In this document: in pieces, positions 2-34,005 of the stretch
How the letters are laid out: every line of letters starts with the position of its first letter
Position numbering within the stretch: position 1 is the first letter of the stretch
Assembly: GCA_900318935.1 (NCBI GenBank)
Contig: ONMP01000012.1
Span: 1 to 35,015 of the forward strand
Reading direction: 5' to 3'
DNA length: 35,015 bases
Origin: an uncultured Actinomycetes bacterium
GTDB taxonomy: Bacteria > Actinomycetota > Coriobacteriia > Coriobacteriales > Atopobiaceae
Made by a program: the position numbers and the translations under genes
The notes under the pieces: generated by a model
Seen by the model: the letters and a program-made list of their open reading frames with translations, nothing else
What the model was told of the DNA's origin: nothing
The model's database searches: none

Positions 2-3000
2 GGCGCTGCCACGATCGAGCTGTGGGTGGACGGCGAAACGAGCCCTCGCCAGAGCACGCCAGCTGTCATGGGCGAGCGCACGCAGGTGGGGACGAGGCGC
101 GTGTGGGCAGGACTCGAGCCCGTCTACGGAAACGACTTCATGGGGCGAGTCGTCACGGGATACGTGGACAAGTACGTGGACGAACCCATCTACGGCACCC
201 CTGCCAACGCCAGCCTCAAGGCGCCCTTCTTGAAGACGGGCGACGCAGCCTGCCTGCCCGCGGGCGCCAAGCTCAAGCTCGTCGTAACGCAGAACGGCAC
301 GTCCTACAGCTGGCCACTCGCCTGCACCATTTCCGAAGGCGTCGTGGAAGAACCTGCAGACAAGAAGAACCAAAAGCTCAATGCTATCAACGTGTCCAAG
401 ACCAGCACCTCAGGCATCGGCATCGTCTGGCCGGACAGCGTGCCCATCATAGGCGGCGGCAACCTCTCGTTCTGGATGCCGCAACTGCCCATCGACATCT
501 ACGTGAACCCCTTTGGCCTCGTACAAATCACCCTCAAGGTACCGCTCTGGGGTTACCGCAACGACAAGGGTAACGACGAGCCGAGCGGCTGGGGCCGCTA
601 CCCACGCAGTTCGGTGCAAAGTCAGTGGAATCAGAAGGTCAAGACCCTCAAGGCCATGGCCGACAAGACCAACGCGCTCGTCTCCAAACCAGGCGCCGTG
701 CAGCAGATCGACCTCTTCAAGTCCTTCTCCATCGACATCAACTTCCAACTCATGGCACTCGCGAAGTGGGACTCGGCTAAAGGTCTCTTTCAGGGCGAGG
801 TGGCGGGGCAAATCTTTGCGAGCCTGAACTTCACCATCACCGAGAACTTCTTTGCCGGGCCGATCCCCGTGCTCATCACCTTCGCGCTCGACGCGAGCCT
901 GATCTTTGGCTTGTCGGCGGGTACCTACTCCACAAGGAAGAATGCCGACGAGAAACTCATCGACGCCATCTTCGACTTCTCGCGCTGGCATTTCGACTAT
1001 GCGAACACCGGCTTCACCATGAGCTTCAACATCACGCCGTCGCTGTCCGTTGGCGTGGGCATCCGCGGCATTGCGTCGATCTCGGTGAAGGGTGCCATCA
1101 CACTGTCTCTCTTCCTTGGCGTACCCATGGGAACCCAGCCCAAATCGCTTCCCAACCCGCACCTGACGGCCGGCTGGTCAGCACAGATCTCGCTCGTCAT
1201 CGAGCTCTTTCTCTTTACCCAGAACTTCACGCTCTACAACAAGAAGTTCAAAAACTTTTATGACAACTGGGAAGGAAAGAACCTCGTCGCACAGGCGGAG
1301 GCAGACGCCATGAGCGGCCTTGCCGACTTGTCGTTCGAACATCTGCTCGCCGAGCTCGAGCCCATCACGGACACCATGCTGGCCCAAACGCTGGAGGCGA
1401 ACGTGACCGCACCGACGCTCTCGGCGCAAGCAGATAACGAGGCCTTTGTTCGAGACTGGAACTCCGCCGCCACCGAGGTCGAGGGACAGCTAGAGGACGG
1501 CACGCCCCTAAGGTACGTCGTCTATACCTGGGGAGAGCCAAAGGCCAACGAGGATGCAGGCGCGGAGAAGACGCCATCGACCGTCGCCGAGGGCACACCC
1601 CTGCCCGCGACTGGCGAGGACGTGCCCGCCGAAGGGGCATCGGAGGAGTCCGAGACCATCGCCGACGTCACTCCCCCGCTCGCGACTGAGGGGGACGAAA
1701 CACCCGAAGCGGTTGCAGAGGAGCCGTCAAGCGTCGACGAAGCCCTGACAAGCGAGGATGCCGTCGTCGCGGATGAGGATCCGGCAACGCGCGAGGTTAT
1801 TGACGTCACCGCATACACGAACGCCACCGCGGACAAGGAACTCGAAGCCCAGGCGACAAGCGAGGCGTCGATGTCCGCCACCTGGCTCACCGCCATGGCC
1901 GACACCGACCTGCCCAACCCCGGCGTGGCGACACTCGGCGTACGTGGCGGCATCCGCCCCTCTTCCGACGTGAGGCTCTTTGGCCAAGACGACAGCCACG
2001 TCTTTGGAGACTCCCGCATCAAGGCAGTCACCGTCAGCAATCTTAAGCCCTTAGATCACCAGTCCTCCACCTGGACCTTCCGCCTGGCCTCTGTCAGCAT
2101 CAACGATGGCAGTGAAAACCGCGTGCGAACTCGCGTCATCGCAAACTGCATCCATGGCAGCGCAAAGGGCACCTCGCACGTGATCGAGTTTGTCACCGGC
2201 ATCGCCGACATGCCTCACGAGGACCTATATGACTACGACTTTGACGTCGAACGGATAGACCAAGGAGACTACAGCGATCTACAGCTCGTGATCATATCCG
2301 GCAGAAGGGCGAGCGAGGACACGACGCTTGCGAGCGCCGCCACCGACCTTGTCTTTACCTGCATGAAGCTTACGCACGACGAGCTCATGTATGGTGGCAG
2401 CGCCTTGCGTCCGGTCAACATCAACACGCTCTCCCGCAAGGGCAACGAGCTCATAGGTGGGGATACGAATGCATTCCATAGCATCATGAGCATACAAATA
2501 ACGCGTCTGGGATTGAGCTCCGAAAGCATCGTGACGTTCCTCGACAGAAGTGCGGCCACGCGAGAAGAGGCGCTAGGAGAGGGCGCCCAAGTGAGCGTCG
2601 GCCTGCTCTTTGTCAACTGGTTCCCTACTTGCCAGATAATCGCGCCACAACACGAAGACTTTGCGAAGCTCATCGGCGAAATAACCGACACCACCGCATA
2701 CGAGCAGACGCTCTCCTACTACCGAGAGGATGCCTCCAAGCATAACTGGGTCTACACGCTCATGCTGCGCGGCTCCGAGAGCGCTCATTACATCCTGATT
2801 TCCATTGAGAAATACGTGGCGATCTACACCCCCGAGGGCGCCATAAACGTCATAACGAGCATCAAGCGATGCCGGGACTATGACCCCTCCATCCGACTGG
2901 TAGAGTATCCTGGGCATGACTTCTTCCTCACTTCGTTCCCGGACGACCCCGCACAGCTCGACCTGCCCTTTGACCAGCGGGACTACTCCAAATGGACGCT

Positions 3001-4234
3001 TCACAAAGTCACATGGTCGAACGACCCCACGCCCGAGATGCAGACGGCGCCCTTCGGTCCCTCCGGCTTCAACGTCGTAAACTTCGCCGTCAATCCAGAG
3101 GCAACCTACATCTTCTGGCCGCACACGCGCGACGAGTACGAGGACTGCGTTCCCAACGCACAAGCAAAGACGGACATGGTGGCGAGCGAAGCCATCTACC
3201 AGATCATGGGTTGCCGCATCCGTGACGGACACTTCTCCGACCCCTTCGTCGTGGCGGACATGGACACCGACACGGACTCGCTCTGCGTCGTGGACACGAA
3301 TGAGGGCGCCGTGGTCGAGATGCTGCGCACCGAGTACGTGGACACGGGAGAGCGCAACGCCCAGGATCTGCCCCTCTACCACGCAGCCGACATCTGGTAC
3401 ACGGCCGTGCCGCCCGTGAGCTGCGCGACAGCCACGGCCTGCGAGGCGCCGAACCCCTTCGTGACCCCCGGCGGGTCGATCAAGTTCCACGTGGCGGTGC
3501 GCAACGACGGCAACGCATACCTCTCGGGGTGCTCGCTCACGCTCTGCGACTATGACGAGGCGACCGACAGCTTCTATCGCGTGGACGGGGCGACGGCGCA
3601 GGTGGTCTTCGGGCCCGACACGATACAGGAGTCCAACTACAACCGCTCCGACGGCAACGGCGGCCTCACGAACCTGGAGCCCGACTACTCCCTGGCGCCC
3701 GGCAAGACGTCGGTGTACCTCTGCGAGGTGAAGACCCCCAAGGACTGGAAGCCGGGCGAAAAGATGATCCTCTTTGTGGCAAGCGACGGCGTGGTGGCAG
3801 GCAAGTCGGCGCTGTCGGGCCAAGCCGACGGACCCGAAGCCGTGGCGGAAAGCCTGGACGCACAGGCCATCGAGTTCCACATCGAACCCGGCGAGTACAA
3901 GGTTTTCCAGTCGCGAACCCAGCACGACCAGGATCTCAGGCAGCGGCACATGGACACGCTCGTTGTGTCGCAGACCGGCATCGCGATGGATTTCTCGCCC
4001 GCGCCGACGACTGAGTCAGATGAAGGGGAGGGCAATCCCAGCACGGGTGGCACGGGTGGTGCCTCGGGTGGCACGGGTGGCAACGCAAGCTCCGGCGGCA
4101 CGACAGTCGAGCGAAGCGACCTGCCCCACACAGCCGACGAATCCCCCTCAGGCATGCTAGGCGCGGGTCTCGCCGCCCTCGGAGCCGCCGCCCTAGCCTA
4201 CGAACGCCGCCGCGCCCAAAACGAGACCGACTAA
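2..4234 (+). CDS. Large sortase-anchored surface protein, 5' end outside window
   Basis: The reading frame is open from base 2, so the start codon lies upstream; the first GTG (26) is only an internal codon. At least 1,410 residues are present. The N-terminal two thirds match no family I recognise. A linker rich in Glu, Ala, Thr and Pro lies at about 1545-1800. A beta-rich stretch at about 3440-3790 (FVTPGGSIKFHVAVRNDG) resembles CARDB/Ig-like surface modules. The C-terminus is a classic wall-sorting signal: a Gly/Ser/Thr spacer (about 4010-4110), the pentapeptide LPHTA (4121-4135), a hydrophobic Ala/Gly/Leu helix, and a charged tail YERRRAQNETD. The motif has Ala where LPXTG has Gly. The protein is expected to be exported and attached to the wall by a sortase; adhesion is a guess. 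Base use is like that of its neighbours. Confidence 0.85.
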   Translation, partial: GAATIELWVDGETSPRQSTPAVMGERTQVGTRRVWAGLEPVYGNDFMGRVVTGYVDKYVDEPIYGTPANASLKAPFLKTGDAACLPAGAKLKLVVTQNGTSYSWPLACTISEGVVEEPADKKNQKLNAINVSKTSTSGIGIVWPDSVPIIGGGNLSFWMPQLPIDIYVNPFGLVQITLKVPLWGYRNDKGNDEPSGWGRYPRSSVQSQWNQKVKTLKAMADKTNALVSKPGAVQQIDLFKSFSIDINFQLMALAKWDSAKGLFQGEVAGQIFASLNFTITENFFAGPIPVLITFALDASLIFGLSAGTYSTRKNADEKLIDAIFDFSRWHFDYANTGFTMSFNITPSLSVGVGIRGIASISVKGAITLSLFLGVPMGTQPKSLPNPHLTAGWSAQISLVIELFLFTQNFTLYNKKFKNFYDNWEGKNLVAQAEADAMSGLADLSFEHLLAELEPITDTMLAQTLEANVTAPTLSAQADNEAFVRDWNSAATEVEGQLEDGTPLRYVVYTWGEPKANEDAGAEKTPSTVAEGTPLPATGEDVPAEGASEESETIADVTPPLATEGDETPEAVAEEPSSVDEALTSEDAVVADEDPATREVIDVTAYTNATADKELEAQATSEASMSATWLTAMADTDLPNPGVATLGVRGGIRPSSDVRLFGQDDSHVFGDSRIKAVTVSNLKPLDHQSSTWTFRLASVSINDGSENRVRTRVIANCIHGSAKGTSHVIEFVTGIADMPHEDLYDYDFDVERIDQGDYSDLQLVIISGRRASEDTTLASAATDLVFTCMKLTHDELMYGGSALRPVNINTLSRKGNELIGGDTNAFHSIMSIQITRLGLSSESIVTFLDRSAATREEALGEGAQVSVGLLFVNWFPTCQIIAPQHEDFAKLIGEITDTTAYEQTLSYYREDASKHNWVYTLMLRGSESAHYILISIEKYVAIYTPEGAINVITSIKRCRDYDPSIRLVEYPGHDFFLTSFPDDPAQLDLPFDQRDYSKWTLHKVTWSNDPTPEMQTAPFGPSGFNVVNFAVNPEATYIFWPHTRDEYEDCVPNAQAKTDMVASEAIYQIMGCRIRDGHFSDPFVVADMDTDTDSLCVVDTNEGAVVEMLRTEYVDTGERNAQDLPLYHAADIWYTAVPPVSCATATACEAPNPFVTPGGSIKFHVAVRNDGNAYLSGCSLTLCDYDEATDSFYRVDGATAQVVFGPDTIQESNYNRSDGNGGLTNLEPDYSLAPGKTSVYLCEVKTPKDWKPGEKMILFVASDGVVAGKSALSGQADGPEAVAESLDAQAIEFHIEPGEYKVFQSRTQHDQDLRQRHMDTLVVSQTGIAMDFSPAPTTESDEGEGNPSTGGTGGASGGTGGNASSGGTTVERSDLPHTADESPSGMLGAGLAALGAAALAYERRRAQNETD

Positions 4235-7043: not shown

Positions 7044-8732
7044 TCAGCCAAGGGCGTCGCGCACCTCTTGCTCGTAGTCTTCGATGATTGCGGGCACCTC
7101 TCCGTCGAACTCGACGACCGTGTCTCCCACGATATCCAGAAACACCTCGTTGATGTCGTCTACGGCAAGCGTCACATAGAGGGAGTCGAAGCCATCGAGC
7201 GCACCCCCGTCCAGCAACGCACGCAAGAGCTCAATCTGCCGATCATCAAGCGGCAGCTCTTCCGCAGACCTCGAGGAACGCTCCTCTTCCACCGTCCGCA
7301 AACCGTCGGAAGAAGCTCCCTCGGGTTCCACACCACGCAACTCGAACGTCTGCTCAACGACGGCCTCCCCGCCCATTGCCGCTATCGCCTGAGGCGTCTC
7401 TTCGCGCTCATCGTCGGTGAGCAGGGCCTCGCGCGTACGAGCGGCAGCAGAGCGGATGGAGCCGAGTGCCTTGCGGTCGATTGTGATGCGAGCCGCCTCC
7501 TCTGCCTCGCGCATCGCCAGCAGCTCGGCAATGCGCGTATCCACGAACTTGCCCTGGTACTTGGGCAGCGGCTTGTCCTTGAGGCCATGCTTGTCACCGG
7601 TCGCACGACGCATGCGGCAATCGATGGCATGAAGTAACGCCCCGATCTCGTCGCTCTTTTCGGCACGGCGACACGGCAGCTCACGCCACCAGAAGCCCCG
7701 CATGCACACATAGCGCTCAGTGGCACTCAGCTCGTAGGTCGTGTCGGGGTGGCTCGCCTCGCTCCAAAACATCGCACCGGGAAACATCGTGTACGACACG
7801 CGCGACGCTGGCCCGAAGGCTCCCTCGACGAAGCCCGTCTTGCGACGCTTGGCGCAGTGCGCAACCATATCGGCATACACCCGACAGGCAACCCATGCCA
7901 CATCCTCGCGTCGCGCACGAAAGAACCTCGACTTGTCGGCACGGTAGCGCGACAGCGTAATCAAGGCGTCAAGCAGCTCCTCTGATGAGGGCAGTCCCGC
8001 CTGAGGACGCTCGGGCCACGTAACCTGACCGCATGGCTCGAGCAGCGCACGCTCCGCCCGGTCGAGCGTCGACACTGCCTGAATATTTGCCGAAGTCGCG
8101 ATGCCCGAGACGAGTGAGGAGTCGATGCCGTAGTAGATTGCGTAGTCGTGCGTCCAGCGTTTGACCTGGTCGCGCACAACACCGAGCATCGGGTCATCCG
8201 CACCGATGCGCGACAGGGCCTCGAGGCCCGCAGGACCCGGTTCCATGCCGACACCGCAGATAATCTCAAAGGCATAGATGCGCCAAAACGTCCCCGGCGC
8301 GACCGTCTCCTCACCCGCCCGCAGTCGCGTCCGCCATGCCACGTAGCAGCGCAGGTCGTTGTCGCTCAAATCCTCGTAGGTGGGAGTGGCCCCCGTGTAC
8401 CCATAGGGATCCGGTTCCTCGGGATAGTCATCCTCGTAGTCAGCCAAGAGACGCGCCTGCTCCACAAAGAGCTTCGCGGCATCGGTTACGTAAGGATACC
8501 CCCACACGCCCTTCTTGCGCCCGCGCGCGAGACGGCGCACCTCGCGGTAGCGCTCAGGCAGCGACACGCGTCGCTGTCGCGGCCTCGCCACGCTCGTCTC
8601 CTGCTTGCCGTACGCACGCGCTCCCGTACGCAGGATGGGCTCGTCCACATAGACCTTGTCCCCAAAGAGCTTCGAGTTCGCATAGCGTTCGCCACCAAGA
8701 ATCATGTCTACGATGCGCTGCGCCCTTGACAT
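7044..8732 (-). CDS. TerB-N / TerB-C domain protein
   Basis: This 562-residue soluble protein starts at ATG 8732, which shares one base with the metK stop (TGATG) and has AAGGAG five bases upstream. The first half fits the TerB-N domain: LRCYVAWRTRLRAGE and FWRIYAFEIICGVG are the kind of Tyr/Trp/Arg-rich motifs seen there. The C-terminus fits TerB-C, with LDDRQIELLRALLDGG, DDINEVFLDIVGDTVVEFDG and IIEDYEQEV. I do not see a clear TerB core between them. Family members are found with tellurite-resistance-type and stress or conflict genes, where a metal-linked or scaffolding role is proposed; the biochemical function is unknown. The gene converges on the histidine kinase with only 7 bases between them and is probably cotranscribed with metK. 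The family call is from remembered motifs. Confidence 0.7.
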   Translation of the reverse strand: MSRAQRIVDMILGGERYANSKLFGDKVYVDEPILRTGARAYGKQETSVARPRQRRVSLPERYREVRRLARGRKKGVWGYPYVTDAAKLFVEQARLLADYEDDYPEEPDPYGYTGATPTYEDLSDNDLRCYVAWRTRLRAGEETVAPGTFWRIYAFEIICGVGMEPGPAGLEALSRIGADDPMLGVVRDQVKRWTHDYAIYYGIDSSLVSGIATSANIQAVSTLDRAERALLEPCGQVTWPERPQAGLPSSEELLDALITLSRYRADKSRFFRARREDVAWVACRVYADMVAHCAKRRKTGFVEGAFGPASRVSYTMFPGAMFWSEASHPDTTYELSATERYVCMRGFWWRELPCRRAEKSDEIGALLHAIDCRMRRATGDKHGLKDKPLPKYQGKFVDTRIAELLAMREAEEAARITIDRKALGSIRSAAARTREALLTDDEREETPQAIAAMGGEAVVEQTFELRGVEPEGASSDGLRTVEEERSSRSAEELPLDDRQIELLRALLDGGALDGFDSLYVTLAVDDINEVFLDIVGDTVVEFDGEVPAIIEDYEQEVRDALG

Positions 8733-9979
8733 CAGAGCTCCTTGACAGCGGCAAGCAACTCCTCGACGCGGTCGGTGCGCTCCCACGTAAAGTCAGCATC
8801 CTCGCGACCGAAATGGCCGTAGGCGGCTGTCTTTTCAAAGATAGGACGGCGTAGGTCAAGGTCATGGATGATGGCACCGGGGCGCAGGTCAAAGACCTTC
8901 TTTACCGCACGCTCCAGAACTCGCTCGTCAACCGTCGAGGTCCCGAAGGTGGTCACGAGCACGGAAACCGGATGGCTCACGCCGATGGCGTAAGCGATCT
9001 GCACCTCGCAGCGACGCGCCAAGCCTGCAGCCACGACGTTCTTTGCCACCCAACGCGCCGCATAGGCACCCGAGCGATCCACCTTGGTGCAGTCCTTGCC
9101 ACTGAAGGCACCGCCACCATGTCGGCCCATACCACCGTAGGTGTCCACGATAATCTTTCGTCCGGTCAGACCCGTGTCGCCCATCGGACCGCCCACGACG
9201 AAGCGCCCGGTCGGGTTCACGTAAATCTCGGCGTCAGCCCATGCTATGCCCGCGGCATCAAGAACAGGACCGATCACATGCTGCAGCATGTCGTTCTTGA
9301 TAACGTCCATGCTCTCGATCTCTGGCGCATGCTGCGTGGAGACAACCACAGCCGAGACCTCGACCGGCTCGTCGTCCTCATAGCGCACGGTCACCTGCGT
9401 CTTGCCATCGGGACGCAGGTAGCCCAAGGTTCCATCCTTGCGCACTGCGGCGAGTCGTTCTGCCATGCGCTGAGCCAAATATACGGGCATCGGCATGAGC
9501 ACGTCGGTCTCGTCCGACGCGTAGCCAAACATCATGCCCTGGTCGCCCGCGCCGATGCGCTCGAGCTCGTCCGCGCATTCGCGAGCATACGTACCGTCCA
9601 CGCCCTGCGCAATGTCGGGACTCTGCTCGTGAATCATGTTGATGACGCCACAGGTCTCGCAGTCGAAGCCAAACTTTGCGCGGTCGTAGCCGATGCGCCG
9701 TACCGTGTCGCGCACGATCTTTTGCACGTCGACATAGGCCTGCGTACGAATCTCACCCGCCACGATGACCGTGCCCGTCGTGAGGAAGGTCTCGCAGGCA
9801 CAACGCACGTTCGCGAGCGAAGCCGGCACGTTGGTCGGTGAGACATAGCCCTCGGCTTCGAGCCGCGCCTCCTTGGCGAGTATCGCGTCGAGCACGGCGT
9901 CAGAGATCTGATCCGCCATCTTGTCGGGGTGTCCCTCGGTCACGCTCTCAGAAGTGAAGAAATAGGATCCACCTGTCAT
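8732..9979 (-). CDS. metK: S-adenosylmethionine synthetase
   Basis: This 415-residue protein condenses methionine and ATP to S-adenosylmethionine in the cytosol. It begins [25 protein letters not shown], the ATP/methionine-binding signature; this is quoted here in part as SVTEGHPDK. It carries [12 protein letters not shown], the P-loop-like GGGAFSGKD and the metal-binding region near [13 protein letters not shown]. Length and order match the bacterial family. The start ATG at 9979 has AAAGGGG upstream. The gene is divergent from the XRE regulator, and the TerB-type gene follows with a one-base overlap. I looked for a SAM riboswitch in the 130 bases upstream and saw no convincing fold. A TACACT hexamer about 35 bases upstream of the start could be the -10 box. 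Confidence 0.97.
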
Positions 9980-19428: not shown

Positions 19429-21771
19429 CTAGACCCTCCTCTTCATCTGGACAGAACCCTCACCAGGCATGATGCGCCTCGCGTCAAAGACCGACGGCAC
19501 GCGGCTGATGGAGGCAAGCAAGGGATCGAGCAAGCTCGCATCGCTGATACTCACCATGAAACGCAGGCGGGCAACACCTTCGCGCGTCGTCTGCGTAGAA
19601 GCAGAGAGGATGTTTGCCGCCGCATCAGCCACCGCAATCGTGATGTCCTTGAGCAGGCCCATTCGGTCGGTTGCCTCGATGACTATCTCGACGTTGAACT
19701 CAGTGGCACCCGAGGTGTCCCACTCGACCTCTATCATGCGCTCGGGATTATTCATGAGTGACACCACGTTGGGACAACTGCTACGATGCACCGAGACGCC
19801 TCGACCGCGCGTAATGAAGCCCACGATGTCGTCCCCGGCGACCGGATTGCAGCAATGTGCGAGATGTGCAAGCAAATCTGGGTCGCCCTTGACCACCACG
19901 CCACAACTACCCCGCTTCTTTTTGCCCTTGGAGGCATGGGTACGCGGGACGCGCAGATGCTGCTCGCCACCACGAAGATTCTCGAGCGCCTGACGCTCCT
20001 CGGCCTCCTTGCGCGCTTGGGCAAGCTGTTCTGGCGAACCCGCCTCGAGCACGGCTTGGATGCGGTTTGCAACCTGCTTGACCGAGCACTTACCCAGATG
20101 TATCGCCTGAAAGAGCCTCTCGGGAGTGCGCGCATCGAACTGAGGGAGCACCTGCTCGATGGCTCGCGTGGTGCGTGCTGTGGATATGCCGTAGCCGCGT
20201 TTGCGGAGCTCGCGCGCAAGCTCGGCACGCCCCTGCTCCGCATCATCAGCCTTGTTCACCGTTGCGAAGTATCTGCGAATCTTTGAGCGGGCGGACGGCG
20301 TAACCACGATGCCCATCCAGTCACGCGACGGACGGGCGTTTTTGTTTGTGAGCACTTCTACGCGATCACCCATCTGCAGGTTATAGGTGAGCGGCACCAC
20401 CGAACCGTTGACCTTAGCTCCCACACAGTGATTGCCCACCTCAGTGTGGACTGCGTAGGCGAAGTCAAGCGGCGTCGATTCGCGCCTGAGACTCACCACT
20501 TCGCCCTTCGGCGTAAATACAAAGATCTCCCCCTCAAAGAGGTCGACGCGCAGGTTGTTCAGGAACTCGTGCGGGTCCCCCAGATCGTCTTCGTTCACCC
20601 AATCGAGACTACGGCGGATGTGGTTGATCGTGGAATCGATACTGCGATCGTCCTTGGACATTTTGCCTTGCGATCCGCCCGACTTTTTGTATAGCCAGTG
20701 AGCTGCCACGCCGTACTCAGCGTGCTCGTGCATCTCAGCCGTCCGAATCTGAACCTCGATGGGTCGCGCATCGGGACCGACGACCGTGGTGTGCAGCGAC
20801 TGGTAGAGATTCGCCTTAGGCGTGGCAATGTAGTCCTTGAACCGTCCCGGAAGCGGGTGCCATAGAGAGTGAACCGCACCCAAGACCGAGTAGCACTCCT
20901 CCACCGTGCTCGTGATGACGCGCAACGCGATGAGGTCGTATATGTCGGTGAACTCCACGTCTCGCCGCTGCATCTTTTGGTAGATGGACCAGAGGTGCTT
21001 GGGCCTTCCCGTTACCTGGAAGCTGCCGACTCCCACGCGACGCAGCTCGTCGGTGAGCGTCCTGATTGCCTCGTCGGTATCGCGCTCCCGCTGCGCCCGC
21101 GAATCCTGCACCATGCGCGCAATCCGCTCGTATTCCTCAGGCTCCAGGTAAAAGAACGAGAGGTCTTCCAGCTCCCACTTGATGGAAGAAATGCCCAGAC
21201 GGTCAGCCAAGGGGGCGTATACGTCCATCGTCTCACGCGACTTGAACTCACGCTTGTGAGGCGGCAGCGCAGCGAGCGTCCGCATGTTGTGCAGGCGGTC
21301 GGCGATTTTTATGATAACGACGCGTATGTCCTTCGACATGGCGAGAACCATTTTGCGCAGGTTGAGAGCCTGCTTCTCGTCCATGTTTGATACCTGGATG
21401 TTTGTGAGCTTGGTGACGCCATCTACGAGCTCGGCGACGGTCGCACCAAATCGCTCAGTGAGGTCGTCAAGCGTCGCAGGAGTGTCCTCCACCGTATCGT
21501 GCAGAAGTGCGGCACATACGGTATCGGTATCCATGTGCAGGTCTTTCGCAAGAATGAGGGCCACTTCGACGGGATGGTTGATGTAGGGTTCACCAGACCT
21601 GCGTCGCTGCGTGCGATGGAACTCAGCCGCAAAGCGATAGGCGCGCTCGGTCTTTTCGCAACCAACCTTATCCAAGTAGCTCGCACAGGCACTCTGCAGC
21701 AGGCGGTAGTTGTCGGCACCGGGCGCGTCAAGGTCGCGCCCTTTATAAGCCCTCGTCTCCCTTATCCTCAT
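19429..21771 (-). CDS. rel: Bifunctional (p)ppGpp synthetase/hydrolase, RelA/SpoT family
   Basis: This 780-residue stringent-response enzyme makes and degrades (p)ppGpp on ribosomes. The HD hydrolase domain keeps its residues (INHPVEVA with His66; LLHDTVEDT with His91-Asp92). The synthetase domain shows RPKHLWSIYQKM, the DIYDLIALRV block and YQSLHTTVVG...EVQIRT. A TGS domain (IFVFTPKGEVVSLRRESTPL) and a C-terminal zinc-finger/ACT region follow, with paired Cys in LAHCCNPVAGD. All parts are present, so it should be bifunctional. ATG 21771 is chosen for AAAGGGG 9 bases upstream. A TTG at 21813 would add 14 residues overlapping the recJ end. It lies 19 bases after recJ, the usual neighbour. Confidence 0.95.
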   Translation of the reverse strand: MRIRETRAYKGRDLDAPGADNYRLLQSACASYLDKVGCEKTERAYRFAAEFHRTQRRRSGEPYINHPVEVALILAKDLHMDTDTVCAALLHDTVEDTPATLDDLTERFGATVAELVDGVTKLTNIQVSNMDEKQALNLRKMVLAMSKDIRVVIIKIADRLHNMRTLAALPPHKREFKSRETMDVYAPLADRLGISSIKWELEDLSFFYLEPEEYERIARMVQDSRAQRERDTDEAIRTLTDELRRVGVGSFQVTGRPKHLWSIYQKMQRRDVEFTDIYDLIALRVITSTVEECYSVLGAVHSLWHPLPGRFKDYIATPKANLYQSLHTTVVGPDARPIEVQIRTAEMHEHAEYGVAAHWLYKKSGGSQGKMSKDDRSIDSTINHIRRSLDWVNEDDLGDPHEFLNNLRVDLFEGEIFVFTPKGEVVSLRRESTPLDFAYAVHTEVGNHCVGAKVNGSVVPLTYNLQMGDRVEVLTNKNARPSRDWMGIVVTPSARSKIRRYFATVNKADDAEQGRAELARELRKRGYGISTARTTRAIEQVLPQFDARTPERLFQAIHLGKCSVKQVANRIQAVLEAGSPEQLAQARKEAEERQALENLRGGEQHLRVPRTHASKGKKKRGSCGVVVKGDPDLLAHLAHCCNPVAGDDIVGFITRGRGVSVHRSSCPNVVSLMNNPERMIEVEWDTSGATEFNVEIVIEATDRMGLLKDITIAVADAAANILSASTQTTREGVARLRFMVSISDASLLDPLLASISRVPSVFDARRIMPGEGSVQMKRRV

Positions 21772-21790
21772 GCGCCGACACCCCTTTCCC

Positions 21791-24700
21791 TCATCTGTCC
21801 ACCATATTCCCAAAGCTCGGAACGATGGGCCTGTTTATGCGATCTATCAGCTCCTGCGAGGTGGCCGTGAGCACCCAATCGCGGAAACGAACGAATTCTG
21901 CCAACGAGTGCCTGCCCTCAACGTAGCGAATGGAACTCGTAAGGTCTGCGTGGACCGGCGATGGATTCATGAGAATGGTACGGCTGTCTTCGAAGCCCTC
22001 GACCCTGAGAAAGCCAAGCTCGCCAAAGACGGCAATCCCACTTGCCACTGCTGCCATATCCAGCTGCACTTTTGGCTCCTGCGCGCGCACGGCTTCGAGG
22101 AGTTCGGCATCAGCAAGTGACAGAGAGCTGTTACCCACACTTGCGGCCTCACGCCGGAGCACCCGATACAATGCCACCAAGTCCTGACGAGGCGGAGCGG
22201 CCGACGATAGCAGCTTCTCGTTGATTATCGCGTCCCTGCCACCAAACAACAGACGGATGTATGCCGGGGCACCATCTCGACCTGCGCGCCCGCTCATCTG
22301 ATTGAATTCCGTCGCGCCAAACGGCATGTGATAGAGAACCACGTTGCGGATGCCGGGCAGGTTGACACCCTCGCCAAAAGCGCTCGTCGAGACGATGCAG
22401 CATAGATCATCGCCCCTGAATGCCTGCTCTATGCGCTTCCGCAGATCTCGCGAGAGACCTGCATGGTAGAACGCAATGCGTTCGCCAAGTCCCTGCGCCC
22501 GAGACCTGAGCGTCCGCACGAGTGACACGGCCTGATCGCGAGAATTGACGTAGACGACGCACTTCTCGCCCGACGAGACGATGGACGAGAGGTAGAGGTC
22601 ACGGTCGCGCAAGTCACGCTGGTCATCGAGCATGAGATTGGGCCGCACCGTACGATCCACGATAACGTCTTCCTCGTGCACCGAAAGCAAGCTGCATATC
22701 TCTCGAGCCACGGACTCTGATGCCGTAGCCGTTACCGCCAATGCCGTAGGATTCCCCAATTCTCGCAAGATGCGACCGAGCTCCGTATAAGCCTCTCTAT
22801 CCCCTCCCTTGGCTGAGCCAGCATGATGCGCCTCATCGATGACCACAAAGCCCACGTGGCCTGATCGCGCGAAGTCTCTCGTATGAATTGCCAAGAACTC
22901 AGGTGTCGTGAGCACGACATCGACATGCCTCTGTCGTAGACCCTCAAATATCTCGCTGCGCTCCGTAGCATCAGACTCGCCCGTGAGCACACGAACAGAC
23001 AGGCCCATCTTCGCGAATTCCTGTTCGAGATGAAATGCCTGATCTGAGACAAGCGCGCGCAACGGATACACAAAGATGCTCGCGAGCCCCTTCGCTAGAG
23101 CCATGCGCGCCGCATGAATGTGGAAGATAAGCGACTTGCCGCGCCCCGTCGCCATGACGCAGAGCGTGCTGCGGTTTTGCGCAAGCCTGTCGAGTGCTGC
23201 ACTCTGGGCAGGTAGAAGACTCGCATCTCCGATGAGTTGGGCACGCAAATGCTCGGTAAGGGTTTCTGGTGATAGCTCGCCGAGTTGTGACCGCACGGCT
23301 GTCGTCTCGTCTGTGAATGTGCGACCCTGCGGAGCGAAGGCAACAGGTGACACCCGCTGGCTCGAAATGAGCGCGTCTTTGCCATGCGCACCAACAGACG
23401 ATGTCACCAAGGCAGCGGTCGGCACATCCTTGGCCCGTATGTCTTCCGACTGATAGAGTATGTCACGCACCATGAGCTTAGCTTGGGTACGCCCCTGCCA
23501 TGTCTCGCTCACCGCGTCAACGACTAGGTCGACCATGTCCTCGCATGCGTAAGCCTGGCTCATGCGCGGAGCACGAAACATGATGGCCGGTACGGAACTC
23601 ACGCCATCGGTCGCAACGAATCGCAAGTGATTTGCATCGTAGCCTACGCGCGCCCGATTGCGCATAAACACTCCTTGGACGCCAAAGAGCGGGCGCTTGT
23701 TGCCCTGCCCAAACGGCTGGAGCATATCAAGCGCCTTTATGCCCGGCAAGTCGAGCTCACCGAGAGATGCGATGGCAGTCACCTCTCCCAAGTCCTGGAA
23801 CTGCTCTTCGGGCAGTTCGGCCATGACCTGCTGAAGCCGACGTCGGAACTCTCCGATCCTGCTTGCCTCACAGGTGACGCCCACCGCACCGGCATGCCCA
23901 CCGAAACGCACGAGGATGTCCGAGCACTGCTCCACCGCATGAAAAAGGTCCACCGAGCCGACGCTGCGCCCCGACCCTCGGGCAACGCCGTCCTGCATAG
24001 TGAAGACAATCGTCGGGACATGGTAAATGCTTACGATACGACTCGCAACGATGCCCTTCACGCCCTCGTGCCAGCCCTCTCCCGCCACCACGATAACGCG
24101 CTCCCCATCGTAGGTATTCCTGAGGAGCTTGATGGCCTCATCAGAGAGGACCGACTCCGTCTCCCTCCGTTCGGTGTTTATGGATTCAAGCGATGCCGCC
24201 AGCATTGCTGCCTCTGCGGGGTTGTCCGAAATCAAGAGGTCGAATGCCGCATCGGTACTTCCCATACGACCGGCAGCGTTGAGCCGAGGAATGAGCGAAA
24301 ACGGAAGGTTATCGGAGGTAATCTGCGTGAGGTCGCACTTAGCGCTCGCGGCAAGCGCGACGATACCGGGTCGCGTAGACGCGCGCATCCGGGTGATGCC
24401 TTCAGCCACGAGAGAGCGATTCTCGCCATGCAACAGCATCATGTCGGATATCGTGCCCAAAGCGGCAAGGTCCACATACGACCACCAAAGGTCGGGATTC
24501 CCAAGCCAGCGTCCCAAGAGGCAGACCAGCTTGAGCGCAACCCCTGCACCAGCCAACTCTCGCGACGGACACGTGTCGGAGAGCTTAGGATCGGTGACAG
24601 GTACGCCCTGCGGCACGAGGTCTCCCGGCTCGTGGTGATCGGTAATCACCACGTCGATACCCTTCTCGAGAAGCCACGTAACCTCGTTCTTTGCCGCTAT

Positions 24701-25153
24701 GCCATTGTCGACCGTCACGATGAGATCGGGGTGGCAGTCCGCGATGACCCTATGGAGCGCCTCGGGGGAAAGACCGTAGCCCTCACCAAACCGATGGGGT
24801 ATATAAGGGTGCGCATGCGCTCCGAGTGCCCTCAGCCCCAAAGTGAGCAGACAGGTAGACGTCATGCCGTCTACGTCGAAGTCGCCGTAGACGGCAATCG
24901 TCTCTTCGTCAATGATTGCGCGCTCCACCCTTCGCGCGGCTTCTTCCATCCCCGGGATCTCAAGCGGATCGGTCCAATCGCGTTTGAGTGAGGGCTGCAA
25001 GAAGCGAATGGCCTCCTGAGGTTCGCGCACGCCACGCGCACACAAAACGCGCGCCACGAGGGGTGTCAGGCCAAGTCTCTCGCACAGCACACGCTCGGAC
25101 TCCCCATGACTGGGGAGCACCTCCCAGCGCTTGTTGTCGAGAAGACTCGCCAT
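21791..25153 (-). CDS. recJ: RecJ exonuclease fused to a RecQ-like SF2 helicase
   Basis: This protein of 1,120 residues is about twice the usual RecJ size. Residues about 1-575 are a complete RecJ: DHH motif I GDFDVDG (90-96), TVDNG (148-151), TDHHEPG (171-177), IPRLNAAGRMG (289-298), DHHA1 motif GGHAGAVG (418-425) and an OB-like domain to about 570. Residues about 640-1000 are an SF2 helicase with PAQSAALDRL, Walker A MATGRGKS (667-674), DEAH (773-776), TATAS (808-812), STSAFGEGVN (922-931) and QMSGRAGRDG (952-961), which is RecQ-like. The last about 120 residues are unassigned. The frame runs through both halves without a break. RecJ and RecQ work together in RecF-pathway resection, so the fusion joins unwinding and 5'-3' degradation. 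It starts 15 bases after secD. Confidence 0.92.
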   Translation of the reverse strand: MASLLDNKRWEVLPSHGESERVLCERLGLTPLVARVLCARGVREPQEAIRFLQPSLKRDWTDPLEIPGMEEAARRVERAIIDEETIAVYGDFDVDGMTSTCLLTLGLRALGAHAHPYIPHRFGEGYGLSPEALHRVIADCHPDLIVTVDNGIAAKNEVTWLLEKGIDVVITDHHEPGDLVPQGVPVTDPKLSDTCPSRELAGAGVALKLVCLLGRWLGNPDLWWSYVDLAALGTISDMMLLHGENRSLVAEGITRMRASTRPGIVALAASAKCDLTQITSDNLPFSLIPRLNAAGRMGSTDAAFDLLISDNPAEAAMLAASLESINTERRETESVLSDEAIKLLRNTYDGERVIVVAGEGWHEGVKGIVASRIVSIYHVPTIVFTMQDGVARGSGRSVGSVDLFHAVEQCSDILVRFGGHAGAVGVTCEASRIGEFRRRLQQVMAELPEEQFQDLGEVTAIASLGELDLPGIKALDMLQPFGQGNKRPLFGVQGVFMRNRARVGYDANHLRFVATDGVSSVPAIMFRAPRMSQAYACEDMVDLVVDAVSETWQGRTQAKLMVRDILYQSEDIRAKDVPTAALVTSSVGAHGKDALISSQRVSPVAFAPQGRTFTDETTAVRSQLGELSPETLTEHLRAQLIGDASLLPAQSAALDRLAQNRSTLCVMATGRGKSLIFHIHAARMALAKGLASIFVYPLRALVSDQAFHLEQEFAKMGLSVRVLTGESDATERSEIFEGLRQRHVDVVLTTPEFLAIHTRDFARSGHVGFVVIDEAHHAGSAKGGDREAYTELGRILRELGNPTALAVTATASESVAREICSLLSVHEEDVIVDRTVRPNLMLDDQRDLRDRDLYLSSIVSSGEKCVVYVNSRDQAVSLVRTLRSRAQGLGERIAFYHAGLSRDLRKRIEQAFRGDDLCCIVSTSAFGEGVNLPGIRNVVLYHMPFGATEFNQMSGRAGRDGAPAYIRLLFGGRDAIINEKLLSSAAPPRQDLVALYRVLRREAASVGNSSLSLADAELLEAVRAQEPKVQLDMAAVASGIAVFGELGFLRVEGFEDSRTILMNPSPVHADLTSSIRYVEGRHSLAEFVRFRDWVLTATSQELIDRINRPIVPSFGNMVDR

Positions 25154-25168
25154 TCATACTCCTTCGCG

Positions 25169-26605
25169 CTAGGATTCCTCTGCCTTCGAATCCTCACCTT
25201 CGGAGGCAGATGCCTCCAAGCCCCAAGCTGCGGGGTCTTCCTGCATAGAGCCGACAGCCATAACCCTCATGAGCGGCACCTCAAAGAGCAGCACCGCCAT
25301 CGTAGAGGCAATGGCACCCAGCACAATGCCGAGGCCAAACTCACGCAGCTGGGCGAAGGGCAAGAAGAGAAGCACAAGTGAGACTACCACGATTCCCATC
25401 AGGGGCAGCGCCATGGGATTCAGCGCGTCTGACACGGCGCTGAGCGAGGACCCGCGCACGCTCTTGCCCAAGCGAGCGAGCTCCTGGAAGCGCGCCGCGA
25501 CAGCCCATGCCGCAACCACGCCACCAGCGCAGGCAAACACGCCGCCTACAAGCGAGGGCATGGTGAGCACAAATACCTCGATGCGTGAGACGACAGCCAT
25601 CAGGCCAATCATCAGGATGCCTTCGACGACCTCGCTCCCCAAGACTAGCAAACCGGTCTTCTTCATGCGCATGAAAGCGATGACAGCGATCACGATGATC
25701 GCGACCGCGGCGGCACCAGCGAGCATCACTGCCGCCTTGTCACCCGCAACTGCTCCAATCTCGGTGGAGTCGGTAAGCTTGAGATTTGTCGGCAGGACCT
25801 CAGAGTCAAGCACGGCCTTGAGCGCCCTCGCCTCAGCCTCGCTGAAGCCACCGGATATGGACACCTGACCACCGTCAATCTTCTCCGAGACGTTCGGCGC
25901 AGAAATCACGTTGCCGTCAATCACGATGGCTATCGAGCCGTATTCCTTAGCAAGCTCCTCCGTAACATCAGCAAACTTCTTTGCGCCCTCGTCATCGAAG
26001 TTGATCGTCACCGCATAGATACCCTCGGTCACCATCACGACATCACACGAGGTAACGTTGTCGTTGTTGAGAAAAGCAGTGTAGGTGCCATCCTTGAGTG
26101 TGGCATCCTTTGAGCCGGCATTGAGCAGGGAGAGGGCATCGGCGTCACCGATATCGTCCACGCGTACGAACTCGAGCTTGCCCGCTCCGCCCACAGACTC
26201 GGCGATGCGCTTGCCCTCGACGTTCCATGGGAGCTTGATGACCACACCATTGGATCCGCTGGGATCAGCAAGGTATTCCGACACGCCAACATTACCGAGC
26301 CTGTCGCGTATGGTAGCGACCGCCTTGGACTGCTCGTCCGCAGAAAGGTCCTTGTCGGCAGTCATGGTCTGCGCCGTACCGCCCTTGAACCACAGCCCTC
26401 GCGTGATACGTTCCTGAATAGGCCATGCGCACACGACGCTCAGCACGCAGCATATGACTACGAACGCTACCACCGCCACTCGGCGACGGCGGTCCTGTGC
26501 CAAGCGCTTGCCTCTATTTGCACGAGAATCGCGTCCCGTGCCTTCGCTCTCGTTCCATCCGGCGACACCCGTCTTGTGCGTGGTCGCCTCCTTGCCTCGG
26601 GCCAT
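25169..26605 (-). CDS. secD: SecD-like protein with degenerate proton-pathway helix
   Basis: SecD works with SecF to pull exported proteins out of SecYEG using the proton gradient. This 478-residue protein has the family plan: a membrane helix (about 42-61), an extracytoplasmic P1 domain (FKGGTAQTMTAD..., GGFSEAEARALKAVLDSEVL at 252-271), and five further helices. Anchoring on GKSV (380-383), the helix that usually reads VDANVLIFERI here reads VVAAWAVAARF (363-373). The conserved Asp is Val364, the Asn is Ala366 and the Glu is Ala371. The following DANITT-type motif is also not conserved. No secF or yajC is present: recJ starts 15 bases downstream, tgt lies 96 bases upstream. Start ATG 26605 has GAAGGA 7 bases upstream; other starts at 26629 and 26665 are possible. 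Confidence 0.85.
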   Translation of the reverse strand: MARGKEATTHKTGVAGWNESEGTGRDSRANRGKRLAQDRRRRVAVVAFVVICCVLSVVCAWPIQERITRGLWFKGGTAQTMTADKDLSADEQSKAVATIRDRLGNVGVSEYLADPSGSNGVVIKLPWNVEGKRIAESVGGAGKLEFVRVDDIGDADALSLLNAGSKDATLKDGTYTAFLNNDNVTSCDVVMVTEGIYAVTINFDDEGAKKFADVTEELAKEYGSIAIVIDGNVISAPNVSEKIDGGQVSISGGFSEAEARALKAVLDSEVLPTNLKLTDSTEIGAVAGDKAAVMLAGAAAVAIIVIAVIAFMRMKKTGLLVLGSEVVEGILMIGLMAVVSRIEVFVLTMPSLVGGVFACAGGVVAAWAVAARFQELARLGKSVRGSSLSAVSDALNPMALPLMGIVVVSLVLLFLPFAQLREFGLGIVLGAIASTMAVLLFEVPLMRVMAVGSMQEDPAAWGLEASASEGEDSKAEES

Positions 26606-26701
26606 GAGTATTCCTTCTTTCGCTTCCATATGTCCTGCATATGAGTAACTTATGAAGTCTATCACTCACCACATAGCCGTTACAAGGGTGAATTTTTGAC
26701 A

Positions 26702-31663: not shown

Positions 31664-33370
31664 TCACGCGCGGGGAATCTCGGTCCAGTCAGCACCGGGG
31701 TCGAAGCCTCCAGATCCACCGATCACGTCCCCGGCCTGATTCTCGTACGCACGGTCCGCCGACACGTCCAGCTCGACCTCGCGCCCGTCGGAGGTGACGA
31801 ACGTGTTGACCCCACGTATGGCCTCCGACCAGTCGCCCACACCACCTCCGGTAGCGCTTCCCCTGAACTCCGCGTTTGTTCGCTCGCGGAACGCGGCGTG
31901 GTGCGCGTCGCTTTGGGCATGCCAAGAGGCGAGCTGCGCATCAAACGCGGCCTGACGTTGTCTGTCAGCCGCGAGCGCCGCCTGCGTCTGTGCATTCATC
32001 ATCGCAATCTGCTGGTTGGTAGCCTGCTGCATGGCTGCTGCTTCTTGGCGGGAGTCCGACTCGGCGAGCGCAATGAGCTCCTCATGCAGCGCATAGTCAT
32101 TGACTAGCGGAACAAACGCCTGTTGATAGAGACGGTCAAACTTGCTTGCAGGTGCAAAGAGCACCGCAACACCCGCCACATCCCAGTAGATACTACCCGT
32201 GTGGCGGTAGGACTCGAACTCAGGCAGGCTCCAAGCGCCAGCAGCTCCCGAGCCGGCCGTGACGGATCCGCTTCGAACGTCCTGCGTCTCCCTGCGCTTT
32301 TTGCGCCTGCCAAAGAGCCCACCTACCGCAGCACCAAGACCCACAACCATACCAGCGGGATTCAACATATCGACGCCGGAGGCATCGCGGATGGCATACA
32401 TGCGCACGTATGCTACCAGTCGGTATGCGATGTCCTGGTAGACGAACTCGTAGATGCGTGTAAGCTCTGCCGCGAAGGGGTCTTTGAGCAGCGCCCCACC
32501 AGAGGACTGCGCAGCACGTCGGAACTGCGCATGCCCCATCTCTTGGAGCTGGCCGAGGCGCGATGACCCCACCTCGCGCACGAGCCGCACGCCATGACCG
32601 GCGGCTTGACCCGTGACGCGGCGCATCGCAGCGTCGGCAAGCTCGCGCGGATCGGGCATATCGGCGTAGTTGGTACGGTCCACGCCCGCAAGCGCCCCGC
32701 CATACATGGCCATCGTGGCTCGCATGCTTTCGCTCATACGCATGCCCGCATCACCGAGCTCGAGGCTCATCTTGCCACTCGAGCCATCGTCAAAGCTCGC
32801 TCGTGCCAGATACGGCCGCGAGCTGGAGCTACCACGCAGCAACCTCGCATCGCTGAGCTGCCAATTCGTGGGAAGCGTCAGCAAGAACAACCCCCGGCCG
32901 CTCGACGCGTCACGCACAACGGCGCCATGGCGGTATTGTGGCTGTGCGGTCTCGCGGGCGGCGGCTTCGCGGGCGGCCTGCTCCCTCGCGGCGGCTTCGC
33001 GGGCGGCACGCTCTCGCTCCGCCCGCTCCCGCGCCGCCTGCCTCCGGGCCTCCTCAGCCTTCCTGGCCTCCTCTTGCTGCCGGAGCTCCTCTTGCTGTGC
33101 CTCGAAGGTGAGTCGTTGCTCTTCGGCCTTCCTCTTGGCCTCTTCGGCGTCGCGCTCAGCCTGTTTGCACGTCTCCTCAGCCTGCCGCGCCGCCTCCTGC
33201 GCCTCACGCATCGTCGCCCGAGCGGCTCGCAGCATCTCCTCAATCGCCCGAGCCTGCGCTATGTCAACCGGCTTCCCGCAATGCGGACAGAAGCACCTCA
33301 CGACATCCGCACGCGGCACGAAGCTCTCGCCACACGCAGGGCACATCAGCGGCTTGTCGGACCCACTCAT
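31664..33370 (-). CDS. Zinc-ribbon/coiled-coil protein of unknown function
   Basis: This 568-residue protein is coupled to queH: its ATG (33370) overlaps the queH stop as ATGA. Residues 10-31 make a zinc ribbon (CPAC at 10-13, CPHC at 28-31). Residues about 43-145 are a highly charged Ala/Glu/Arg/Gln coiled coil. A central region (about 150-440) has LFLLTLPTNWQLSDARLL and a small Gly-rich hydrophobic patch followed by GRRKKRRE. A Gln/Ala-rich helical part (about 460-510) and an acidic C-terminus (GDWSEAIRGVNTF, VELDVSADRAYENQAGD) complete it. I do not recognise a family. Its place between queH and queA may be chance, or link it to tRNA modification or zinc supply. Coding strength over the whole frame and the overlap with queH make it a real gene. 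Confidence 0.8.
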   Translation of the reverse strand: MSGSDKPLMCPACGESFVPRADVVRCFCPHCGKPVDIAQARAIEEMLRAARATMREAQEAARQAEETCKQAERDAEEAKRKAEEQRLTFEAQQEELRQQEEARKAEEARRQAARERAERERAAREAAAREQAAREAAARETAQPQYRHGAVVRDASSGRGLFLLTLPTNWQLSDARLLRGSSSSRPYLARASFDDGSSGKMSLELGDAGMRMSESMRATMAMYGGALAGVDRTNYADMPDPRELADAAMRRVTGQAAGHGVRLVREVGSSRLGQLQEMGHAQFRRAAQSSGGALLKDPFAAELTRIYEFVYQDIAYRLVAYVRMYAIRDASGVDMLNPAGMVVGLGAAVGGLFGRRKKRRETQDVRSGSVTAGSGAAGAWSLPEFESYRHTGSIYWDVAGVAVLFAPASKFDRLYQQAFVPLVNDYALHEELIALAESDSRQEAAAMQQATNQQIAMMNAQTQAALAADRQRQAAFDAQLASWHAQSDAHHAAFRERTNAEFRGSATGGGVGDWSEAIRGVNTFVTSDGREVELDVSADRAYENQAGDVIGGSGGFDPGADWTEIPRA

Positions 33371-34005
33371 CTTGCGCTTCCCTTCGATGGTGACCCATTC
33401 GTACCAGCGGCAGCTTCTCGCGCGGCCTTCTTTGCAGCCTTGCGGGCGTCTCGACGTTCTTGTCGCTCGATGGCAGCCTCGGCTGCACTGAAGCGACAGC
33501 CGCAATAGTTCTGCCGATACATGCCCAGCTCACGCGAGCGCCTCGTCGCCTCGGGATAATGTGGCCTGAAGTCGCGCACCACCGGCGTGAGCCCGTGATG
33601 GGCCGCCAGCGCTACGAGCACCTCGTTGCAGGTCTCAAAAAGCTGATACGGCGAGACGGCAAGCGTCGTGGAGATGTGACTGAAGCCCCTCTCCCCTGCC
33701 ACGCGGCAACTCTCGGCCAGACGCAGCGCGTAGCAGGCACGGCAACGGCGCTCACGGTCGAAGCCCGCCGGTGCCGCGCCGCGCTCCCATGCCTCACGAT
33801 CGTCACCCGCTATGATGACCTCGACCTGCGCCACCTCACGCGCCCAGTCGAGCAGCGTTTGTAGGCGCAGGTCGTGCTCTGCCACTGGCTGGATGTTTGG
33901 GTTCGTCCAGCAAATCGTCGGCTCGAAGCCCTCCTCGCGCAGCAAACGCAGCGGCTCGAGAGAGCACGGGCCGCAGCAGGCATGCAAGAGGAGCGGTGTG
34001 GGCAT
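33367..34005 (-). CDS. queH: Epoxyqueuosine reductase QueH
   Basis: QueH reduces epoxyqueuosine to queuosine in tRNA and replaces the cobalamin-dependent QueG in many bacteria. The 212-residue protein has the family's cysteine motifs: LLLHACCGPCS (Cys10, Cys11, Cys14), RCRACYALRL, and GMYRQNYCGCRFS, which together bind iron-sulfur and metal. ATG 34005 is chosen because AAGGAGG lies 5-10 bases upstream; an in-frame start at 34056 lacks this. A basic Ala/Lys/Arg-rich tail follows the core and overlaps the next gene by 4 bases. It lies 63 bases after thrH on the same strand. I saw no preQ1 riboswitch in that gap. Confidence 0.94.
   Translation of the reverse strand: MPTPLLLHACCGPCSLEPLRLLREEGFEPTICWTNPNIQPVAEHDLRLQTLLDWAREVAQVEVIIAGDDREAWERGAAPAGFDRERRCRACYALRLAESCRVAGERGFSHISTTLAVSPYQLFETCNEVLVALAAHHGLTPVVRDFRPHYPEATRRSRELGMYRQNYCGCRFSAAEAAIERQERRDARKAAKKAAREAAAGTNGSPSKGSAR

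Follow-up and report, generated by a model that had tools for sequence, protein, structure and literature searches.

The recJ-helicase gene of the window

We analysed a stretch of 35,015 nucleotides (contig ONMP01000012.1, here called the window) from an uncultured bacterium of the Atopobiaceae, a family of the class Coriobacteriia in the phylum Actinomycetota, in which the nuclease RecJ and a superfamily 2 (SF2) helicase are encoded by one gene. In textbooks, 5' ends are resected by RecJ acting with RecQ, two separate proteins. An earlier note, made from the sequence of the window alone, had claimed that a complete RecJ and a complete SF2 helicase lie in one chain, and we found this to be so. 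The gene is a single frame of 1120 amino acids (aa) with an ATG start and no internal stops, and all motifs of both enzymes are present. The gene and its domains are as follows.

21791..25153, minus strand: recJ-helicase fusion gene, 1120 aa, a single open frame with its stop at 21791-21793 and one-frame orthologues across the class and in Bacillota
24452..24901, minus strand: DHH nuclease domain, aa 85-234 (PF01368, E=2.9e-20)
23819..24100, minus strand: DHHA1 domain, aa 352-445, with the GGH motif at 418-420 (PF02272, E=9e-13)
23462..23767, minus strand: RecJ OB domain, aa 463-564 (PF17768, RecJ_OB, E=2e-18)
23312..23458, minus strand: disordered linker, aa 566-614, at the HIRAN site of relatives (predicted local distance difference test, pLDDT, 25-27 in the full-length model)
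22658..23236, minus strand: helicase RecA1 domain, aa 640-832, with Walker A (ATGRGKS, 668-674) and DEAH (773-776) (PF00270, E=6e-24)
22232..22657, minus strand: helicase RecA2 domain, aa 833-974, with motif V (TSAFGEGVN) and motif VI (QMSGRAGR) (PF00271, E=7e-23; invariant columns)
21794..22231, minus strand: C-terminal domain, aa 975-1120, a predicted winged helix (AlphaFold2 model; profile-profile match to RecJ tails)

The first half of the protein belongs to RecJ, since DHH, DHHA1 and OB lie in the proper order and the NCBIfam recJ model TIGR00644 gives 453.8 bits against a cut-off of 396.9. In an alignment of relatives the catalytic columns (D91, D93, D95, D149, D172-H174, D237 and G418-H420) and the nuclease motifs GDFDVDG and DHH are invariant. 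Judged by its sequence, the RecJ part is most likely a 5'-3' exonuclease of single-stranded DNA. In the second half Pfam places DEAD at 648-816 and Helicase_C at 858-961, and all Pfam domain matches of the protein are far above their cut-offs. The SF2 helicase motifs I (ATGRGKS), II (DEAHH), V and VI (QMSGRAGR) are intact and are invariant or almost so among relatives.

An AlphaFold model of the helicase and C-terminus (aa 566-1120) reached a pLDDT of 87.5 and a predicted template modelling score (pTM) of 0.82, with the RecA1 domain mostly above a pLDDT of 90. Residues 569-612 come out as disordered. Pfam has no match in the C-terminal region of the protein, which scores below the gathering threshold of PF10141, the family of the Bacillus-type RecJ tail. 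The predicted order of helices and strands there is H-H-H-E-E-H, the order of a winged helix, with a pLDDT of about 90, and the C-terminal ~145 residues are thus predicted to be a winged helix. When profiles were compared with profiles, this domain (aa 975-1120) matched the tails of RecJ proteins at E=4e-10 to 6e-25, and the C-terminus matched PF10141 at 4e-10. The earlier note had left this tail unassigned and had proposed that it may be a new DNA-binding part; it is instead homologous to the tails of ordinary RecJ proteins and to PF10141.

The window is one contig of a genome bin of 397 contigs, and an assembly frameshift or a cleavage artefact might in principle have joined two genes. We found that the same frame is open in relatives from the genus, the family and the order, apart from a single frameshift and a small number of contig breaks. 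Single-contig genomes (for example G025 and G178) likewise carry it unbroken, and so do named isolates, among them Olsenella porci (L139) and Parafannyhessea umbonata (L158). Because the same single frame recurs in relatives, single-contig genomes and isolates, chance is excluded, and so is a frameshift error, which the earlier note had named as something that would refute it. We give the joining of two genes by an artefact practically no weight.

The earlier note had also asked whether the fusion holds across the Coriobacteriia, and there it proved near-universal. Our sample of the class was 139 genomes, 118 of them good (completeness of 90% or more, contamination of 5% or less). The helicase part was found in 130 of the 139, including 116 of the 118 good ones. 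In 123 of these 130 genomes the open frame spans 1,057 aa or more, and in the other 7 it is shorter. Measured against the closest relative (L008), the ratio of nonsynonymous to synonymous substitution rates is lowest in RecJ (about 0.05) and the helicase (0.06) and higher in the C-terminus (0.14) and the linker (0.25). Purifying selection acts strongly on both halves.

A few loci call for comment. In G034 (L070:1037-4815) a frameshift splits the fusion into frames of 588 and 788 aa, from either a sequencing error or a decaying gene. The 1655-aa frame of G022 (L078:1419-6383) has about 430 additional N-terminal residues ahead of RecJ, which may be read-through upstream of the true start. Two bins labelled Slackia heliotrinireducens and Aeromicrobium (L160 and L146) carry a recJ that falls far from the place expected of the label, and they are probably mislabelled.

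The helicase and the HIRAN domain

The closest solved SF2 relatives of the fused helicase are RecQ proteins (4tmu, 1oyw). The earlier note had called it a RecQ-like helicase, which is right in that it is a RecQ-related SF2 helicase and wrong if taken to mean a RecQ, for in our tree it forms a group of its own. RecQ membership was rejected on four tests: curated models, an aromatic-rich loop, the zinc-binding and HRDC domains, and the tree. The protein scored 183.6 against a cut-off of 640.2 with TIGR01389 and 171.5 against 219.8 with TIGR00614. The aromatic-rich loop (WGxxFRPxY) that follows DEAH was found in 11 of 11 RecQ rows and in 0 of 29 fused rows. Pfam has no match to RQC or HRDC in the fusion, as the earlier note had also seen. 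In the tree the fused helicases do not group with RecQ, and the two form separate groups with a support of 99 in the Shimodaira-Hasegawa-like approximate likelihood ratio test (SH-aLRT). RecQ thus has the aromatic-rich loop, a zinc-binding domain and HRDC, and the fused helicase is without all three. A likely 3'->5' motor is common to both; RecQ partners RecJ in trans, whereas the fusion has its motor in cis.

To the earlier question of a separate recQ the answer is yes, since a true RecQ (L002, with helicase, RecQ_Zn_bind and HRDC) is encoded elsewhere in the same genome. That genome also encodes a second RecQ-like SF2 helicase (L005, genome G000:C376) with a WGHDFR loop. PADLOC gave matches to the defence proteins DpdF and PsyrT. 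We rejected a defence system because the matches are confined to the SF2 motor and secD-recJ-relA is a housekeeping locus.

Longer relatives of the protein carry a HIRAN domain (PF08797) between OB and the helicase (L063, 1.5e-18; L067, 2e-10; L077, 1e-12). Among 135 fused proteins, 103 carry this domain. The 32 without it are all from the order of the window and include every member of its genus in the set, and this genus has lost HIRAN.

Distribution of the fusion and the tails of ordinary RecJ proteins

To look beyond the class, GTDB genomes were scanned with a profile of HIRAN, helicase and tail, which gave 527 relatives; fusion state was judged on the best 80 of these 527. All 80 are fused to RecJ or lie where a contig end cuts before the whole RecJ is visible. 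They include Bacillota (Thermincola, HGW-Firmicutes-8 and -14, and others), Candidatus Oleimmundimicrobium, Anaerosomatales and Atopobiaceae. In a count of our own, an intact full-length fusion was present in 19 of 199 Bacillota genomes. Fused forms therefore occur in two phyla, in Actinomycetota beyond the Coriobacteriia and in Bacillota, the latter being among the best 80 of the 527 relatives, and the statement of the earlier note that other bacteria have these activities only in separate genes does not stand.

The neighbours of recJ in the window are the following.

25169..26665, minus strand: secD, upstream neighbour in the same direction, with a 15 bp gap to recJ (SecDF_P1_head, E=1e-21)
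19429..21813, minus strand: relA/spoT, downstream neighbour (HD_4, RelA_SpoT, TGS and ACT domains)

If the TTG start of relA is used, its frame overlaps the recJ stop. The gene secD adjoins recJ in many relatives with enough flanking sequence, and the RecJ-helicase fusion usually adjoins relA. In both phyla relA lies beside recJ whether the locus is intact, pseudo-helicase, relic or helicase-free.

The ordinary RecJ proteins of the sister classes and of Bacillota have 200-500 additional residues after OB. We aligned these tails in clusters and compared them, profile to profile, with the intact RecA2 and C-terminus. RecJ proteins of 984-1105 aa that carry a pseudo-helicase matched at E=1e-57, with RecA1 still at 1.5e-25. 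The match was E=1e-46 for Bacillota RecJ proteins of 841-907 aa, 5e-20 for other Bacillota tails, 6e-20 for the tails of the Actinomycetota sister classes and 4e-9 for the Bacillus-type RecJ (PF10141 by Pfam). Column-shuffled controls gave 0.09-0.5 in the same comparison. A direct PF10141 search of the phylum returned no matches, the model of the family being probably too narrow, and this is why a profile-profile comparison was needed.

Profiles made of decayed tails only were then compared with the Protein Data Bank. They matched the tail of a 757-aa RecJ, 8y30, at 5e-13; from this length we take 8y30 to be the RecJ of S. aureus, as the table of the Protein Data Bank names no organism. The same profiles matched RecA2 of the DEAD-box helicases Hera (9e-5), Vasa (4e-4) and DDX3X (6e-4). 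In one chain (L207) matches to DEAD (1.3e-5) and to PF10141 (8.6e-4) occur together, and another (L209) retains HIRAN in a decayed state (5e-7). All 42 intact rows have Walker A, DExH and motif VI. DExH and motif VI are in none of the decayed rows, which have a few GK[ST] strings, none of them in a Walker context. Since this decay series extends to the tail of S. aureus RecJ and to PF10141, the C-terminal domain of RecJ in many Gram-positive bacteria, S. aureus included, appears from these comparisons to be the remains of a decayed helicase.

Two further loci show the helicase leaving RecJ. In a Coriobacteriia genus (L069:429-4448, genome G221) HIRAN, helicase and tail are cleanly gone, so that a 571-aa RecJ is followed directly by relA. 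This genus is also that of the fused L067 and L068, and the second good genome of L069's genus (G509) is likewise without the helicase. The Bacillota genome G387 encodes both a RecJ with a pseudo-helicase (L223:715-3987) and, about 750 kb away, a lone intact HIRAN-helicase of 657 aa (L222:1816-3786). The lone helicase groups with the RecJ pseudo-helicase of its own genome (SH-aLRT 84), as if the motor had moved out of recJ.

In a tree of the RecJ core the intact forms are scattered among decayed ones in both phyla, with 10 changes, and a single clade of intact forms was rejected (approximately unbiased test, p-AU 2e-58). The fused helicase itself is one group in the helicase tree. Because a working SF2 motor is very unlikely to arise from a remnant without motifs, the simplest history is one in which the ancestor was intact and the helicase was lost repeatedly. 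We therefore regard it as highly probable that an ancestor common to Bacillota and Actinomycetota had a single-chain resection machine of RecJ, HIRAN and helicase, which the Coriobacteriia and some Bacillota keep, and that most Gram-positive RecJ tails (PF10141, S. aureus, Bacillus) are the fossil that its motor left behind, all stages of the decay being visible today. The contrary view, that the Coriobacteriia alone joined a RecQ-like helicase to RecJ in a separate event unrelated to the RecJ tails elsewhere, could appeal to Pfam, which gives no significant helicase match in most ordinary RecJ tails. It is contradicted by the profile comparisons, the decay intermediates, the single helicase group and the shared locus and synteny, and we consider it very improbable.

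A proposed route for 5' end resection

The RecJ of E. coli deals with 5' overhangs unaided but needs the 3'->5' helicase RecQ where ends are blunt or 3'-tailed (PMC4846377). We propose that in the fused protein the motor, presumed to run 3'->5' like its RecQ relatives, would load on the 3'-ended strand of broken or gapped DNA, while the winged helix would grip the duplex or pry it apart. The displaced 5'-ended strand would then be handed over to the active site of RecJ, which is part of the same chain, and HIRAN, where it is kept, may hold the 3' end. The outcome would be a self-contained resection of 5' ends that leaves a 3' overhang for RecF and RecA; RecF is present in the genome of the window. 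The architecture, the intact motifs, the selection, the synteny and the homology of the RecJ tail to the helicase are observed; we infer the polarity, the coupling of unwinding to degradation and the roles of HIRAN and the winged helix. The fused form may predate the split of the sampled Bacillota and Actinomycetota lineages or may have spread early between them. At the same locus the helicase would have decayed many times, with RecA2 and the winged helix surviving as the non-catalytic C-terminal domain of RecJ (PF10141). On balance we think it probable that this chromosomal recJ is an old single-chain form, made of an exonuclease, a RecQ-related SF2 helicase and a winged helix and originally with HIRAN, that carries out coupled 5' resection and whose helicase decayed in other lineages to the PF10141 tail.

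A number of observations weigh against this account. The full-chain AlphaFold model has a pLDDT of 85.2 and a pTM of 0.54, so the placement of nuclease and helicase relative to each other is not predicted confidently and their geometry is left open. Pfam finds no HIRAN (PF08797) in the window protein itself. Because the genome also has the RecQ of L002 and an AddA-type protein with UvrD and PD-(D/E)XK (L243), the fusion is not its sole resection system. In the genus of L069 the helicase was lost cleanly while RecJ and relA stayed, so that there it is dispensable to RecJ. As for the history, the tree of the RecJ core was built quickly and has long branches, and exchange of the gene between the phyla could produce part of what looks like loss. 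The match of the Bacillus-type RecJ is the weakest step of the decay series, and the RecJ tails of Deinococcus and Thermus (5f54, 2zxo; domain IV) were not reached by the relic sequence profiles A7 and A8.

Alternatively, the protein may be a fork remodeller, in which HIRAN and the motor regress stalled forks or open gaps, with RecJ there to trim the lagging strand or the arm formed by regression, so that it would serve fork repair and not the resection of double-strand breaks. HLTF remodels forks through its DNA-binding HIRAN domain (PMC4666394), most fused relatives have HIRAN beside an SF2 motor as do HLTF and Rad5, and resection has the AddA-type enzyme and RecQ at hand. Yet the window protein is without HIRAN, as are its genus and other families of the order, which nevertheless retain the helicase, and the motor is related to RecQ and not to SWI/SNF. 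We hold fork remodelling to be unlikely. Nor do we favour a union of two independent enzymes for co-expression or shared recruitment only, with no mechanical coupling, to which the disordered linker, the low pTM, the lone HIRAN-helicase gene of one genome (L222) and the helicase-free RecJ of another (L069) would lend themselves. Of the 118 good genomes of the class, 116 keep the helicase part, fused forms come from two phyla, and the lone helicase sits in a genome whose RecJ still bears a pseudo-helicase, all of which make a union of this kind quite unlikely.

The proposed coupled resection enzyme can be set beside known systems. With RecJ (TIGR00644; solved as 8y30, 5f54 and 2zxo) it has in common the DHH-DHHA1-OB core, the catalytic motifs and the relA-adjacent locus, and its RecA2 and winged helix are homologous to the 8y30-type RecJ tail. 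Known RecJ proteins have no active helicase, whereas the fusion, as read from its sequence, has a full motor after OB. The PF10141 tail (ssDNA-exonuc_C) differs from the fusion in that RecA1 is missing, RecA2 is shrunken and there are no ATPase motifs. From HLTF and Rad5 the fusion differs in the family of its motor and in having no RING, and the window protein lacks their HIRAN. RecJ, RecQ-like helicases and helicase-nuclease fusions as a kind (WRN, exonuclease-DinG, AddA/RecB) are already known. In WRN and AddA, motor and nuclease act together. The same is proposed here for the fusion and is described for exonuclease-DinG and archaeal HAN-Hef (PMC12345164, PMC5717133), the latter being a RecJ relative and an SF2 helicase that are there separate proteins and not one chain. 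All four, WRN, exonuclease-DinG, AddA/RecB and HAN-Hef, differ from the fusion in nuclease polarity or in the families involved. No paper that our search turned up describes RecJ fused to HIRAN or to a helicase, or a vestigial helicase in RecJ; the search was thin on subscription papers, so that an earlier notice elsewhere is possible.

With nuclease and motor in one chain, coupling, stoichiometry and polarity can be measured in one purified enzyme. If the RecJ tail is indeed a fossil helicase, this gives an origin to PF10141, which Pfam describes by place only, and suggests a candidate origin for the RecJ tail of Deinococcus, which was reported to have no homologues (PMC4663267). It would also provide a natural series from a working motor to a protein-docking remnant.

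Three other frames of the window were recorded. A 1402-aa protein on the plus strand (26-4234) has an LPXTG-type cell-wall anchor and no other domain matches. On the minus strand, a 580-aa protein with TerB_N and TerB_C domains (7044-8786) adjoins S-adenosylmethionine synthetase, and a 613-aa frame with no Pfam match (31664-33505) overlaps sizeable plus-strand frames.

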